From: Pseudomonadota bacterium
GTDB taxonomy: Bacteria > Pseudomonadota > Gammaproteobacteria > Burkholderiales > Gallionellaceae
DNA length: 64,000 nucleotides
Direction of reading: 5' to 3'
Assembly (NCBI GenBank): GCA_021782365.1
Contig: JAJXVB010000007.1
Span: 62,001-126,000, forward strand
This document shows, one piece after another, positions 21,856 through 62,533 of this stretch; the stretch's first letter is position 1; the number at the start of each line of letters is the position of its first letter. The notes under the pieces were generated by a model that was given only the letters and a program-made list of their open reading frames with translations, searched no databases and was not told the origin of the DNA. A program made the translations under genes and the position numbers.

Positions 21856-24036
21856 TCAGGGAGCCTGCTGAACCAGTATCCGGGTCAGCGCATCTTGTCC
21901 TAGTGGCCTGTGATAGAGGAATCCCTGCATGGTGGAGCAGCCCGCGTTTTCGAGATAGCCTGCCTGCAATTCCGTCTCGACTCCTTCCGCGATCAGGTTC
22001 AGCCCAAGCTCCTTGGCGATCGAGATGATCGCGAGGATGATGGGCGAATGGGTATTCTCGAAAACGATCTCCTTCACGAATGACTGGTCTATCTTGATCG
22101 TGTGGATCGGGAAACGCTGAAGGTAGGCGAGTGAGGAATACCCCGTTCCAAAATCGTCTATCGCAACGCTGACCCCTGTCCTGCTCAGCATGTTGAGCTG
22201 GTCTATCGCATGGTTGGGATTGCGGATGCAGATGTTCTCGGTGATCTCGACCTCTATCTGGCTCGGGGAAATGTCATACCGCAGCAGCGCTTCCTTGAGT
22301 TTCCTGGGAAAGCCGCGTTCCAGGCATTGGGGTGAGAGATTGATGGAGAGCCTGGAAGGGCTGATGCCTGCCTCGTTCCAGGCTGCAAGATGTTTAAGCG
22401 TGGTCTCGAGCATCCATTCGCTGATCGGCACGATGAGCCCGTTTTCTTCCGCGTAGGGCAAAAAATCGCCGGGAGTCAGCATGCCGCGCATCGGATGCCG
22501 CCAGCGCATCAGCGCCTCGACCCCGGTGATGCGGCCGGTGGCGATATCCACTTGTGGCTGGTAGTGCATCTCAAGCTCGCTTCTCTCGAGCGCCTTGCGC
22601 AGGTCCTTCTCGAGAGCGAGCTTCTGATGCGATGCGTCCACCATCGAGGTGTCATAGAAGCCATGCCCGTTCTTCCCTTGCGCCTTCACGTGGTACATCG
22701 CGAGATCCGCGTGGCGGATCAATTCCTCTATCGACGACCCGTCGTCCGGATAGAGCGCGATGCCTATGCTGGCCGATATCTGCGCCTCATTGCTGCCGAA
22801 ATGGAAAGGCTGCTGCAACGACTTGAGAAATTTTTCCGCAACCTCGATGGCATCCTGCTTTTCCTTGAGGTCCGTCATCAAGAGGATGAACTCGTCTCCT
22901 CCGATGCGCGCGAGTGTGTCACCTCTGCGCAGGGATCCCTTCAGGCGTGTCGCAACCTGTCTCAAGAGTTCGTCTCCGGTGACATGGCCCATCGTGTCGT
23001 TGACCAGCTTGAAACGGTCGAGATCGATGAACATCACCGCAAGTTTCGAGTCATTCCGCTTGCATTGGATGATCGACAGGCCGAGCCTGTCCTTGAAAAG
23101 AGCCCTGTTCGGCAGATCGGTCAGGATGTCGTGATAGGCCTGATAGGTGATCAGGGCCTCGGCTCGCTTGCGCTCGGTGATGTCGCGCGCGACGCCATAG
23201 GTGCCAAAATACTCTCCGCTGCTTTTCCGGGTGTCGGACAGATACATTCCCATCGAGTTGAAAGAAATGGTCAGCAGCGAATTTTCGAACGTGATGCTTC
23301 CGCCCAGCGCCTTGTGGCACTTGAGGCGAAGCTCGACATTGCTCGATGCGCGCTCTCCCACCCTTCTTTCCTGAAAGACATATCTGGCCTGCTCGACGTC
23401 TTCCTCGTGGACCAGCATGGAATAATGCTGGCCTATCAGTTCCTCTCGCGTGTATCCGAGCAGCTGCTGCACCCGGTTGTTGACGAAGGTGAATTTTCCA
23501 TCCTCGTCCAGCGCATAGATGATATCCGGGGAATTGTCGACGAGATAACGGTAGTTCTTCTCGGAATTTTCGAGCTGCATCGTGACCTGTCGATGTTTTT
23601 CAGCAAGGGCTCGCTGCTTCAAGACATTGTCCACGGTCTTCAGGAGCTCTTCCCTGGCATAGGGCTTTCTGAGGTAGTCGAATGCGCCGCGTTTTAGCGC
23701 CCCGATCGCCGAATCGATGTCGGTGTTTCCGCTGATGACGACCACGTCGGTTTCCGGGGTGTCGGCATTGATGACGCTCATGATATCGAGCCCGCTCATG
23801 TCGGGCAGCCTCATGTCGAGGAGCACCAGATCGAACTTTTCCTGGCGCAGCAGCTTGATTGCATCCTCGCCGCTGCCGGCAGTGGCCAGTTTGAAATTGA
23901 AGGGCTTCAGGAGTTCATGAAGGCTGCTCAGCATCCTTGGTTCATCGTCCACGAGCAGGATGCTGGGTATTCTGTTCGCTTCAGAGGCCTCACCCATGAG
24001 CGCTGCCGCAAAATTCAACGAGTGTGCGGCATTCAT
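21856..24036 (-). CDS. Response regulator with PAS, GGDEF and EAL domains
   Basis: 726-aa c-di-GMP signalling protein. Receiver domain (residues 25-140) with acidic pair VDDE and phospho-acceptor Asp73 (VLLDMRLPD); PAS (about 160-285, YALDEDGKFTFVNNRVQQLLGY); GGDEF (about 300-460) with intact RIGGDEF and an inhibitory I-site RRGD five residues upstream; EAL (about 475-720) with EALMRWRHP, the loop DDFGTGYSS and EGVET. Both catalytic sites look intact, so net output cannot be predicted. Its start overlaps the kinase gene by 4 bases (ATGA), making the upstream HDOD kinase the obvious cognate sensor. Confidence 0.93.
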   Translation of the reverse strand: MNAAHSLNFAAALMGEASEANRIPSILLVDDEPRMLSSLHELLKPFNFKLATAGSGEDAIKLLRQEKFDLVLLDMRLPDMSGLDIMSVINADTPETDVVVISGNTDIDSAIGALKRGAFDYLRKPYAREELLKTVDNVLKQRALAEKHRQVTMQLENSEKNYRYLVDNSPDIIYALDEDGKFTFVNNRVQQLLGYTREELIGQHYSMLVHEEDVEQARYVFQERRVGERASSNVELRLKCHKALGGSITFENSLLTISFNSMGMYLSDTRKSSGEYFGTYGVARDITERKRAEALITYQAYHDILTDLPNRALFKDRLGLSIIQCKRNDSKLAVMFIDLDRFKLVNDTMGHVTGDELLRQVATRLKGSLRRGDTLARIGGDEFILLMTDLKEKQDAIEVAEKFLKSLQQPFHFGSNEAQISASIGIALYPDDGSSIEELIRHADLAMYHVKAQGKNGHGFYDTSMVDASHQKLALEKDLRKALERSELEMHYQPQVDIATGRITGVEALMRWRHPMRGMLTPGDFLPYAEENGLIVPISEWMLETTLKHLAAWNEAGISPSRLSINLSPQCLERGFPRKLKEALLRYDISPSQIEVEITENICIRNPNHAIDQLNMLSRTGVSVAIDDFGTGYSSLAYLQRFPIHTIKIDQSFVKEIVFENTHSPIILAIISIAKELGLNLIAEGVETELQAGYLENAGCSTMQGFLYHRPLGQDALTRILVQQAP

Positions 24037-26150
24037 GATTGAGCCGCCGCGTATTTTGGATGTTCCGCTTTTGCTGCGGCAACGGGAAGGAGGACCGTGA
24101 AGGTGGTTCCTGATGGCCCGCTGTCGCAGCTGATGATCCCTCCGATTTTCTTGACCAGATCGTGGATGATGCTGAGTCCCAGGCCCCGGTTCTCTCCTCG
24201 TTTGCTGCTTCTGACCGGAGAGAAGAGGTTGGCCAGCACTTCTTCAGGGATACCGGCCCCGCTATCGCTGATGCGAAGCTCGCAATAGGCTTTACCATCC
24301 TGGATCTTGCGGCCGCTGTTCCTGACTTCTATGGTTCCCCCGTTGGGCAGCGCCTCGACCGCGTTCTTGATCAGATTCAAGAGGATCTGCTTCAGCGGAT
24401 CGGCAGAACACGCGATTTCGTCTGGCTTGTCGCCCGTCTTGACGACGATGTTCACCGTGGAAGGCAAATAGCGGCTTACGGAGAATAAGCGCACTACATC
24501 CTTCAGCACGCCGTTGACCTCCGTGGTATCTGATTCCTGTGGCTGTTCGGCGAGTGAGCCCACGATGCGGCCTACGCGGTCGATCTCCTCATTCAGTATC
24601 GAAAGCTCCTCGACGATGGGCTCGTTTCTTGCGATCTTGTCATCGAGCACGCCCAGATAATTCTTGATGATGGAAAGCGGGTTGTTCACCTCGTGGATCA
24701 CCTTGCGCGAAGTTTCCTGGTGCGCCTGATTTATCTTGGCGATGCTCTTCTCGATCTCGGATCTTAGCTGGGTTGCCGACTTCAGCGATGCGGCTGCCTG
24801 TGTCGCGTAGGATTTCAGGAAACGCTCGCTGTCCCATAGTTCGGATGCCTGGGGGGCCGAGAGCCCTCCCACCAGGACGCCCAGGCAGGATTGCTCGATC
24901 ATCAATGGCATGTAAACGAGGTATTCCGTTTTCATGCTGCGCAAAAGCTGCTGGTCAACGATGCTCAAGGAATCATCGCGCCTGATGAATGTGACCTGGC
25001 GCTTCTGCACCGACTCCGCAACCGCGCATTCGTCGGTCAGGGGTATGGAGATTTCGCTGATGCGCTGCTGGTTTTCTGTGATGGGAACGCCTGTGAGCGT
25101 TTTTGCGTGGTTCAACAGCAGCAGTGTGTCGTCGAAATTGAAAAGAACACAAGCGGTGCGCGCGATGGTTTCGAGCAGTTCTCGCCCGCTGCAGCGGGAA
25201 AAGGATTGGGCGGCCGCAGATACGAGGGATGTATTCCTGACTTCGTCTGCCAGCCTTGCCTGTTTCTTGTCCTCGGCCTTTGCGGGAGGGAGATATTCGG
25301 CGGCTGGCGGGGCTGCTTCGCTAAGATTGATGCCGAAATAGGATGCGGCAGTCCTGGTCTGCGCTTCCACGGCATTCAGAATCGTTTGAAGATCATCGTC
25401 ATTCATGCCGCAAAGCTCTCCTGCGCCGTTTAGCGCATCGGGCTTGTAGCTGCTCAGGAGGTGAGCAAGGCACACCAGACGGATCAGCGGGTGCGCGGAT
25501 TTCAGGCGTCCGATGGGCTCGTGGTGGTAACGCACGCTGTCCGCCATGAAAGAATCCAGGTTCCAGCGCTCGATAAGCCATGCTCCCGCTTCTGCATGCG
25601 TCATTCCCATCGAACTCGTCTCGACCGAGCATAGATGCTCGTCATCCATCGCCATGAAGTTCGATCCATATGCTCCGGTACTCAAGAGCGCCAAACGTCC
25701 TGCATCGTGCAGCAGGCCAGCGAGATACGCTTCCTCGATATGGGGATAGGATATTTTTCTTGCGAGCTCGCGGGCAATCACTGCGGTTTTTAACGCATGC
25801 GCCCAGAAGCCTTCGAGTTCGATGCCATGCGAGAGGTTGTTGAAAGTCTGAAATATGGATTCGCTGATCACCAGCGTCTTGGTCATTTCGACGCCAAGCA
25901 CGTTGAGCGCCTGCATCAGGCCGATCTTGCGGTTGCCGCGGTTATAAGCGGCGCCGTTTGCAATGTTCAGAACCTTGATCGCAATGCCTGCGTCATGCGC
26001 GATGAGTTTGGCCAGTTCGCCTATCCCTGCCTCTTCCTTCTGACAGAGATTGAGCAGTTTCGAGAGTATCTGCGGCATGACCGGGAGACGCGCCACCAGC
26101 AGTTTATTGCGAATAGTCTGATCAGATCTTTGCATTTTTGCGAGGTGCAT
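24033..26150 (-). CDS. HDOD-GAF sensor histidine kinase
   Basis: 705-aa soluble kinase. N-terminal HDOD domain (about residues 20-215, ARLPVMPQILSKLLNLCQ), a GAF-like sensor domain (about 310-460), HisKA with the phospho-acceptor His in KVIHEVNNPLSIIKNYLGVL, and HATPase with N-box NLIKNAVEAL, G1 SDSGAGIPEE and G2 RGLGLSIIHD. No transmembrane segments are seen, so it senses an internal signal. It is the first gene of a two-gene operon with the RR-PAS-GGDEF-EAL protein. The FNR-type site at 26290 is about 146 bases upstream of its start and could affect it as well. Confidence 0.92.
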   Translation of the reverse strand: MHLAKMQRSDQTIRNKLLVARLPVMPQILSKLLNLCQKEEAGIGELAKLIAHDAGIAIKVLNIANGAAYNRGNRKIGLMQALNVLGVEMTKTLVISESIFQTFNNLSHGIELEGFWAHALKTAVIARELARKISYPHIEEAYLAGLLHDAGRLALLSTGAYGSNFMAMDDEHLCSVETSSMGMTHAEAGAWLIERWNLDSFMADSVRYHHEPIGRLKSAHPLIRLVCLAHLLSSYKPDALNGAGELCGMNDDDLQTILNAVEAQTRTAASYFGINLSEAAPPAAEYLPPAKAEDKKQARLADEVRNTSLVSAAAQSFSRCSGRELLETIARTACVLFNFDDTLLLLNHAKTLTGVPITENQQRISEISIPLTDECAVAESVQKRQVTFIRRDDSLSIVDQQLLRSMKTEYLVYMPLMIEQSCLGVLVGGLSAPQASELWDSERFLKSYATQAAASLKSATQLRSEIEKSIAKINQAHQETSRKVIHEVNNPLSIIKNYLGVLDDKIARNEPIVEELSILNEEIDRVGRIVGSLAEQPQESDTTEVNGVLKDVVRLFSVSRYLPSTVNIVVKTGDKPDEIACSADPLKQILLNLIKNAVEALPNGGTIEVRNSGRKIQDGKAYCELRISDSGAGIPEEVLANLFSPVRSSKRGENRGLGLSIIHDLVKKIGGIISCDSGPSGTTFTVLLPVAAAKAEHPKYAAAQS

Positions 26151-26289: not shown

Positions 26290-26336
26290 TTGATCTAGAT
26301 CAATATTCCGATGAAAGCCTGAATATATCCTTCATA
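26290..26336 (+). promoter_or_regulatory. FNR/ANR box with class II-spaced promoter
   Basis: TTGATCTAGATCAA (26290-26303) is an exact match to the FNR/ANR consensus TTGATNNNNATCAA, also palindromic through its centre. A good -10 hexamer TATATC lies at 26324-26329, which would start transcription near 26336-26338. That puts the box centre at about -40 to -41.5, the class II activator position. It points at the short ORF at 26375. The same box could also influence the divergent HDOD kinase gene. Only sequence evidence; no FNR gene is in the window. Confidence 0.8.
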
Positions 26337-26374
26337 CCGGCTGTTTGGCCCAATCAACTACGGAGGATGTCGGA

Positions 26375-26467
26375 ATGCAAAGCTCACTGCCACTATTGTT
26401 TGTCTTTTCGCCATATCTTGTTTTGGCATTCATGATCATGTTCAGCGGATCTCCTACACGCCATTGA
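26375..26467 (+). CDS. Predicted 30-aa single-span membrane peptide
   Basis: Too short for the ORF track. ATG at 26375 preceded by GGAGG with an 8-base spacing, the best Shine-Dalgarno in this 520-bp gap. The product MQSSLPLLFVFSPYLVLAFM... is one hydrophobic helix of about 20 residues ending in GSPTRH. It lies about 40 bases after the predicted start of an FNR-class-II promoter and about 70 bases before a strong terminator, so it forms its own roughly 225-nt transcript. I do not recognise a family; size and topology recall small subunits of oxidases or membrane-regulatory peptides, but similarity is not shown. Alternatively the transcript is an sRNA and the ORF is fortuitous. Confidence 0.5.
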   Translation: MQSSLPLLFVFSPYLVLAFMIMFSGSPTRH

Positions 26468-26538
26468 TCTTCATGCGCTTCATGCGCTTCTTGCCCATAC
26501 AACCTTATGGTTGAGTTTTACAATGATCGCGTTTTCAT

Positions 26539-26563
26539 TCCCTCGCTTGCGAGGGATTTTTTT
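26539..26563 (+). terminator. Strong Rho-independent terminator
   Basis: TCCCTCGC-TT-GCGAGGGA (effective loop CTTG) followed by seven Ts. It separates the short FNR-box transcript from the chemoreceptor gene. Confidence 0.9.
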
Positions 26564-26673
26564 ACCTGCGATGCTCTCGATTAAAGTATTATCCTTGATT
26601 GCCGATAAGGGTATACCACGTTGATCATCGAGGCGTCGGGCGAGAGACCCGATATCCGCAGGGGGAATGCAAA

Positions 26674-28752
26674 TTGAAGAACAATCAGCCGGTGACGCAG
26701 CACGAGCATTTGCTTCCGGAAGGAACGCTCCTCGTTTCAAAAACCGATCTCAAGGGCATCATCACCTATGCAAACGACGCATTTGTCGAGATAAGCGGCT
26801 TCTCTAGGGAAGAGCTTATCGGCAAGAGCCATAACATCGTCCGCCATCCCGACATGCCGCCATCTGCATTCAAATGGCTATGGGATACGCTTTCATGCGG
26901 ATTGCCGTGGCGCGGCATCGTGAAGAACCGTTGCAAGAATGGCGACTATTACTGGGTGAAGGCGCTGGTTTCCCCCATCAGCGAAAATGGCAAGGTTATC
27001 GGATATCTTTCGGTAAGGCACAAGCCTTCGAGGGAGGAGGTCGGCGAGGCACAGACGTTATACCAAAAGCTCAACGAGACCGGCGCCACGATAGGCTCCA
27101 GGTTCGACAAGTTCAGGTTCAGGAATCTTTCGCTGAACTTGAAGCTTCAGCTCCTCATACAGCCTGTGCTTTTCATCGTTCTGGCAAGCGCTACCTATCT
27201 GCTTTATGGAGAGATGAAATCGACCATGCTGGAGCATGCAAGGCAGCGGTCAGAAGCGACCGCGATGCAGGTGATAGACAGCGCGAACATGCTGATGGTG
27301 ACAGGCCAGATCAGCGAGCCGGAAAACCGCAAGCTTCTGATCAGGAAGATCATGGAGGGCCAGCATCTCACATCGCTGCGCCTGGTGCGCACAGAACAGG
27401 TGGTCAAGCAGTTCGGCCCGGGGCTGCCTGAAGAGCATCTGGATGATCCGCTGATCAAGGAGACGATAGAGGCATCGGTCAAGGCAGGAAAGTCGCTGCC
27501 GCATTTCAGCCAGGAAAAGGTCGGCGGCAAGCTCCTCTTCAGGGCGATCACGCCCTATATCGAATCGCATGGGTTTCACGGCACGGATTGCCTGAGCTGC
27601 CATTCGGTCGAAGTGGGGAGTTCGAACGGCGCATCCGACATCACCCTCGATCTGACAAGCGAATATGCGCATCTGCACAATCTTCTGATCACGCTGATAG
27701 GTTCGCAGATCGGCATACAGCTTTTCATCTTCCTGGTGATGAGGTTCGGCTTCAAGCGGTTTGTCGAGCGCCCCCTGGTCGGCATGGAGAAGCAGTTCGA
27801 GGGCGTGATAGAGGGCAATCTTGCAAGCGACATCGACATCTCGGGGCGCGATGAGCCGGGGATACTCTATTGCAAGCTGCAGGTCATGCAGTCCCAGATC
27901 CAGGTGATGCTGGACGAGATGGAATTGGCGGCATCCATCATCATGGAACACAGCACGGAGCTCGACGAGAAGGTGGTCAGGGTGGCCGAGCAGTCATCCA
28001 ACCAGCGCAACAACATCCAGCAGATCACGAGCAGCATGGAGGGCTTCAGCCGGTCCGTATCGCAGGTCGCTCAGGATGCCAGGGATTCGGCAGGGGCTGC
28101 CACGAGCTCGCAGGGCATGATAGAGGACAGCAACAGGCGCATGGAGCAGGCTGTGCTCTCCGCATCCAAGGTGGTCAAGGCGGTGCGCTCATCCAGCGAT
28201 GCGATAGACGATCTGAAATCGGCCATCCAGAAGATAGGCGACATCAGCAAGGTCATCAAGGAGATCGCCGACCAGACCAACCTGCTCGCCTTGAACGCGG
28301 CGATAGAGGCGGCGCGCGCAGGCGAACAGGGCAGGGGATTCGCGGTGGTCGCAGACGAGGTGAGAAAGCTTGCCGAACGGACGGGCTCCAGCACGACCGA
28401 CATCGCCAGCATGGTAGGAAACATCCATGCGGTGAGCCAGAGCGTCGTCGAATCCATGCACGAGGCGATCAGGGAGGTCGAGGAGGAATCCAAGATCGTC
28501 CATGAGAATGGCGAGACGCTGAAGCAGATCATGGATGTGAGCCGCATGGTGACAGGAAATGCGCAGCGCATCGCCGAGGCTTCCAAGGACCAGTCCGTCG
28601 CGAGCGAGAACGTGTCTCACAACCTCGAAAGCATCTCCGATCTGGTGAACAGCAACGTGAGCATCGCGGAGGATGCGAGGTATGCCTCTCTCGAGCTTTC
28701 GAAGTCGGCGACCGAACTTCAGGCCTTGATCAGGCAGTTGAACAAGAAATGA
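26674..28752 (+). CDS. PAS-containing methyl-accepting chemotaxis protein with a periplasmic haem-c motif
   Basis: 692-aa chemoreceptor from a TTG start at 26674 preceded by GGGGGA; the ATG at 26599 has no ribosome site. Order: N-terminal PAS of the Aer type (residues about 15-120, [28 protein letters not shown]), TM1 (about 158-180), a periplasmic domain of about 155 residues, TM2 (about 336-360), HAMP, then the signalling domain with the canonical tip [31 protein letters not shown]. The periplasmic domain contains CLSCH (Cys306, Cys309, His310), a c-type haem attachment motif. This suggests redox, oxygen or NO sensing outside the membrane in addition to the cytoplasmic PAS. No CheR-docking pentapeptide is seen at the C-terminus (ends QLNKK). 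Confidence 0.9.
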
Positions 28753-62140: not shown

Positions 62141-62533
62141 ATGACATTTGAACCACAGACACACTATCAGCGCATCGGCGGCGAGGAAAAGATCCATGCT
62201 CTGGTGGACCGCTTCTACGAATTGATGGACACGCTTCCTGAAGCCTATGGAATAAGGAAGCTTCACGGCCAAAGCCTGAAGAGCGCGAACGACAAGCTTT
62301 TCAAATTTCTTTCTGGCTGGATGGGAGGGCCGCAGCTCTTCGTGCAGGAATTCGGCGAGCCATTCCTGCGCCGCCGTCACTTTCCTTTTCAGATCGCAAG
62401 CTCCGAGCGCGATCAGTGGATGATGTGCATGAAGCAGGCTTTGGATGAGATCGTGGAGGACGAGGCGTTGAGGCGCGAGCTTTCGGGTGCGCTTGCCAGG
62501 CTTGCCGATCACATGAGGAACAGGGAAGGCTGA
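62141..62533 (+). CDS. Group 2 truncated haemoglobin (GlbO type)
   Basis: 130-aa 2-over-2 globin. Family pattern: YQRIGGEEKIHALVDRFYELMDT, KLFKFLSGWMGGPQLFVQEFGEPFLRRRHFPFQI, with the proximal haem histidine in RRRHFPF and the group-2 tryptophan in RDQWMMCM. Likely roles are O2, NO or peroxide handling. One base separates it from pldA, and its stop is one base from that of the convergent wrbA. Confidence 0.95.
   Translation: MTFEPQTHYQRIGGEEKIHALVDRFYELMDTLPEAYGIRKLHGQSLKSANDKLFKFLSGWMGGPQLFVQEFGEPFLRRRHFPFQIASSERDQWMMCMKQALDEIVEDEALRRELSGALARLADHMRNREG

Follow-up and report, generated by a model that had tools for sequence, protein, structure and literature searches.

A conserved single-helix membrane peptide with a predicted FNR promoter, and its kinship with the anchors of truncated haemoglobins

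The window analysed here is a stretch of 64,000 nucleotides from a bacterium of the family Gallionellaceae (assembly GCA_021782365.1), and the unit of interest occupies one of its intergenic gaps. At the head of the unit is an FNR/ANR box, TTGATCTAGATCAA (26290-26303, + strand), an exact match; the box itself is palindromic, and its strand is set by the conserved distance to the ORF downstream. A -10 element, TATATC (26324-26329, +), begins 27 nt past the box centre, the spacing of a class II promoter. There follow a Shine-Dalgarno sequence, GGAGG (26362-26366, +), 8 nt 5' of an ATG; a 30-codon ORF, MQSSLPLLFVFSPYLVLAFMIMFSGSPTRH (26375-26467, +; ATG at 26375, stop codon 26465-26467), encoding one hydrophobic helix (best 19-aa hydropathy value 2.28); and an intrinsic terminator, CCCTCGCTTGCGAGGG with its T-run (26539-26563, +; stem 26539-26556), more stable than its shuffles (z -2.2), which ends a unit of ~225 nt. 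Read from the sequence, box, -10 element, GGAGG, ORF and terminator are one stand-alone transcription unit; it is one that annotation would miss.

The unit is flanked on one side by a divergent gene for an HDOD-GAF-histidine kinase (24033-26150, - strand), itself adjoined by a gene for a GGDEF-EAL protein. Downstream lies a chemoreceptor gene (26599-28752, +; the start may instead be TTG 26674) whose product comprises PAS, a transmembrane segment, a CxxCH segment, a second transmembrane segment and an MCP signalling domain. The CxxCH motif, CLSCH, sits between two hydrophobic helices, and the receptor could be a c-type haem sensor. The original prediction had noticed this pairing of a haem-motif chemoreceptor with a c-di-GMP pair, and the description is accurate. 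The chemoreceptor is a syntenic neighbour: it recurs in G004, G031 and G010, and in the HDOD-kinase records L018 and L019, which appear to come from the genomes G814 and G813 and are not counted as additional orthologues. Kinase and chemoreceptor are both kept around four orthologues (G813 and G814 through L019 and L018); the kinase gene is missing beside the G010 copy.

One way to understand this arrangement is to suppose that the peptide is a small regulator of the adjacent chemoreceptor, acting in energy or oxygen taxis: the receptor is a same-strand neighbour in the orthologues and in G010, and it contains PAS and CxxCH. A terminator separates the two genes, however, and the other family copies adjoin unrelated genes, many of them housekeeping (guaB-like, uvrD-like, P-type ATPase, MacB-like); closeness to chemoreceptor and c-di-GMP genes is therefore not family-wide, and such a regulator seems quite unlikely.

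A single exact box is weak evidence, because about 0.8 would be expected by chance per genome (an estimate from base composition); it is conservation of the box across loci, not the lone box, that carries weight. The 2.53-Mb assembly holds three exact boxes, this one included, and the reversed-pattern control gave 0 matches in the same assembly; shuffling yielded nine exact boxes in 17,000 upstream stretches of 200 nt. Another of the three falls within a cheY-like gene. The third (L132, G000:C28 about 228362) precedes a sensor-kinase-like gene and has TATAT at the distance of a promoter element.

The exact box lies precisely 85 nt 5' of the ATG in all five orthologues (window, G004, G031, G813, G814). 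It is also found upstream of two globin-fused genes (G019, G808) and of the stand-alone copy in G010; the class II dyad TTGATNNNNATCAA, exact in the window, is kept in these eight loci. The 27-nt spacing from box centre to -10 start recurs in seven of the eight, and in four of the five orthologues: G004 is the exception, with CATATC at the corresponding place, and the spacing in G019, G808 and the G010 stand-alone copy is identical to the window's. With transcription predicted to start at about 26336-26337, the box is centred near -41.5 and the -10 element is in place, as in class II promoters. A sigma-70 promoter scan found no match, as would be expected of a promoter that depends on an activator and has no -35 element. 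Among the proteins encoded in the genome is one of FNR/ANR type, 42% identical to E. coli FNR. It has the [4Fe-4S] cysteines (NCSTCNLAELC near the N-terminus and one further Cys), and its gene adjoins a hemN-like gene. FNR binding at the box, and oxygen-dependent expression of the unit, are predicted on grounds of sequence.

The whole unit (box, Shine-Dalgarno sequence, peptide and terminator, with the same stem) is kept in G004, G031, G813 and G814 besides the window, that is, in five congeneric species. Compared with G004 and G031, the window copy has an in-frame shortening close to the N-terminus. Within this orthologue group pN/pS is 0.11-0.39, about 0.2; pooled across ten subgroups, core codons give pS 0.50 and pN 0.11, on short sequences that restrict statistical power. 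By such comparison the peptide is a real, conserved protein under purifying selection. The original prediction had read the gap as a class II FNR promoter followed by GGAGG, a 30-codon ORF with one hydrophobic helix and a strong terminator, together a unit of ~225 nt skipped by annotation, and had looked to relatives for a conserved frame, GGAGG and box; all of this is borne out. A non-coding RNA or a chance ORF, which a short and unannotated unit might suggest, is already refuted by comparison and retains almost no probability: substitution is biased to synonymous sites across subgroups, the indel among orthologues is in frame, and homologues occur as domains of larger proteins.

The peptide represents, as far as sequence comparison goes, a new and unnamed family of anchor helices, occurring alone or as the N-terminal tether of truncated haemoglobins of group 1 (trHbN). 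The family consensus, MxNxxxxxFVFSPFxxLxLMILFSGK, describes a single helix in which a Pro at mid-helix and a Gly close to the C-terminal end are conserved; the window peptide fits the pattern of the family alignment (A3), an FxFSPF...LMIxFSGK-type helix with both the Pro and the Gly. The N-tail is acidic or neutral and the C-tail basic, which predicts, by the positive-inside rule, a topology with the N-terminus out and the C-terminus in. With the family profile, matches are found in 21 of the genus's 76 species, at up to three copies per genome, and in 8 of 9 species belonging to another family in the order. Of 399 genomes sampled from the phylum, the window's own alone was matched, and class- and phylum-wide searches gave marginal matches or none; those in G496, G627, G654, G162 and G200 were judged to be chance on reading the sequences. 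Pfam and NCBIfam hold no model matching the peptide at E<=1, and the lone match in a PDB sequence search with the family profile was put down to chance.

Most other family copies have no FNR box in the upstream regions examined; as their neighbours are unrelated too, FNR control is a trait of two subgroups and not of the family. Another subgroup (MLITWIG...; L012 and L093) has instead a near-perfect 23-bp palindrome upstream, AATATATCACAATGTGATATATT, the G804 version of which is AATATATCATATTATGATATATT. Dispersed paralogous units (L097-L101, L108, L005, L006) have in common an upstream block resembling GATGACACTATTTCATTGCCAC, and several have a GGCCTGGCTTCGGTCAGGCC-type terminator; they look as though the whole unit had been copied about the genomes. 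In the second family (L022-L026, L120, L123), a stand-alone copy lies between a MacB-like permease gene and the gene for a short membrane protein (MARWLIISG start).

Short hydrophobic peptides, in up to three copies per genome and in dispersed small units with promoter and terminator of their own, might also be type I toxins. This reading is very unlikely: members of the family are joined to globins whose haem pocket is intact, the FNR promoter of the window unit speaks against it, Rfam finds no antitoxin RNA family at the locus, and the mRNA of the unit is less structured than its shuffles, unlike typical toxin mRNAs.

In eight genes, spread over both families, trHbN carries the helix as an anchor at its N-terminus: G019, G808, G010 and G811 in this genus; G197, G261, G291 and G159 in the other. 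Each is laid out as helix, then linker, then truncated haemoglobin. The fused domain belongs to group 1 (PF01152 match; cyanoglobin 2hz2 at 6e-36), and its fold, as predicted, agrees with trHbN structures; AlphaFold models the anchor helix itself with low confidence (pLDDT about 40). Tyr, Phe, Gln and His are invariant in the globin alignment (A4), and we take these to be the residues expected in the haem pocket. The window ORF ends after the helix, with neither globin domain nor haem pocket; the globin is found in relatives only. The gene in G159 (L027 / L053 6925-7803) encodes an anchor helix and then two tandem trHbN domains in one protein. The window also carries, near its end, a second globin, which is trHbO-like (62141-62533; PF01152 1.1e-37). 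Fusion of the helix to small bacterial haemoglobins suggests a role in O2 or NO handling at the membrane. The functional part of the original prediction is borne out only in part: a role as regulator or as oxidase subunit is less likely, and comparison points to a different one, the same helix being an anchor of trHbN.

A fused gene can give rise to one that encodes the anchor alone, to judge from G010. In this genome the locus of the window unit, between chemoreceptor and MiaB, holds a stand-alone copy with an FNR box, and a globin-fused copy comes directly after it. The DNA right after the stand-alone stop codon can be aligned, with a single frameshifting gap, to the beginning of the globin domain (score 41, against a best of 27 among 200 shuffles), and is thus a decayed globin fragment. 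The window peptide might then be a functionless relic, an anchor that survived loss of its membrane-tethered globin and is still transcribed from the old FNR promoter. We give this a low probability: the orthologues in five species keep frame, Shine-Dalgarno sequence and terminator at the pN/pS given above, many further stand-alone subgroups are conserved, and a search behind the window peptide and three of its orthologues found no globin remnant. Since purifying selection persists where no remnant is left, the free helix seems to have a function of its own.

The distribution of the peptide follows that of trHbN-class globins, which occur in 20 of the 76 species: it is present in 17 of these 20 genomes versus 4 of the 56 others (Fisher 1.5e-10), and the four (G804, G819, G026, G821) are 65-93% complete. 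On a tree of one gene, MiaB, 3.6 of the 4 independent pairs with support show peptide and trHbN changing in the same direction, and 0 in opposite directions; the median p is 0.125, four pairs being too few to reach significance. The window genome has a soluble trHbN gene with a ferredoxin-reductase gene and a divergent nsrR (L133; G000:C10:34000-41000). The arrangement recurs in most peptide-positive relatives, and most soluble trHbN genes have an NsrR-like dyad upstream and adjoin both nsrR and a ferredoxin-reductase gene; an exact FNR box was found upstream of soluble trHbN in none of 19 genomes examined.

Small size, a single helix and FNR control are typical of oxidase accessory subunits, and the analogy would fit a terminal-oxidase subunit like CydX, CydH or CcoM that low oxygen induces and that stabilises a bd or cbb3 enzyme. 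At one contig end of the window genome there is a fragment of CydA; the genome also has heme-copper oxidases, and 10 of 12 genomes with true CydA have the peptide (Fisher 1.8e-5). This association is not upheld on the MiaB tree (1.4 same, 0.2 opposite, 2.4 no change); moreover, 11 peptide-positive genomes have no CydA, and because these include G010, 99% complete, bd oxidase is not required for the peptide. Pfam and NCBIfam gave no match to a CydX/YbgT-type model at E<=1, nor the PDB to any chain, and a supposed resemblance to CydS, a bd-oxidase subunit, was dropped for want of a PDB match. No copy lies beside oxidase genes in the neighbourhoods read: the window's neighbours are the chemoreceptor and the HDOD kinase, not cydAB. 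The oxidase reading also leaves the globin fusions unexplained; the role is possible, without specific support, and we think it improbable.

Comparison shows a coding gene with a conserved box and geometry, purifying selection and globin fusions. The reading preferred here, to which we give roughly an even chance, is that the gene encodes a single membrane-spanning helix, induced at low oxygen, which serves a haem protein involved in handling O2 or NO. In detail, at low oxygen FNR/ANR bound at 26290-26303 would activate the class II promoter at about 26337; the ~225-nt monocistronic mRNA would yield a 30-residue peptide; the peptide would cross the inner membrane once, its N-terminus outside and its basic C-terminus inside; and under oxygen scarcity it would position a haem protein there, or aid it, so that O2 is supplied or NO removed. 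The stand-alone form would most likely work with such a protein: candidates are the soluble trHbN and a membrane-bound haem enzyme, for instance a terminal oxidase.

A more specific and distinctly more tentative version supposes a two-part membrane globin system, in which the free helix, regulated by oxygen, brings the soluble trHbN, itself under NsrR control, to the membrane, or else associates with the helix-fused form of trHbN. If true, this would be a membrane-targeted NO dioxygenase or an O2-delivery device, protecting respiration in low-oxygen bacteria. Truncated haemoglobins have long been suspected of acting at the membrane: membrane-associated cases are listed in PMC3820574, and the trHbN of an iron oxidiser has been suggested to be part of a terminal oxidase (PMC3770913). 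A genetically encoded transmembrane tether would make membrane action directly testable, as it would the ability of a free helix to substitute for the covalent one. The peptide also adds a small-protein family, invisible to current annotation, that has a clear regulatory signal and a domain-fusion link to haemoglobins.

How does the peptide compare with known systems? CydH and CcoM are single-span oxidase subunits of about 30-40 aa. CydX-type subunits likewise are about 30-40 aa long, with one helix and a low-oxygen setting (PMC4325964, PMC6005532). The window peptide resembles all three in length, helix and setting; it differs in matching none of their sequence models, in its distance from oxidase genes, in its presence without CydA and in having a globin-fused form. 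Compared with trHbN/GlbN and cyanoglobin (PF01152), the fused relatives carry a complete trHbN domain and differ by their covalent N-terminal transmembrane helix, whereas the window gene is the helix alone. Cyanoglobin has been reported as a peripheral membrane protein (Hill 1996, as cited in PMC3820574); no transmembrane trHb was found in the open-access literature set, which is not proof of absence. Legionella has an NsrR-GlbN-ferredoxin reductase module, an NO dioxygenase (PMC3820574), and the peptide-positive species examined have a like arrangement with an NsrR-like dyad; globins of that type are here soluble and without the exact FNR box, whereas the peptide gene is unlinked and FNR-boxed. 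Lastly, the window promoter has the exact consensus box and the -10 distance of other class II FNR/ANR promoters: it is ordinary in build, and its target gene is new.
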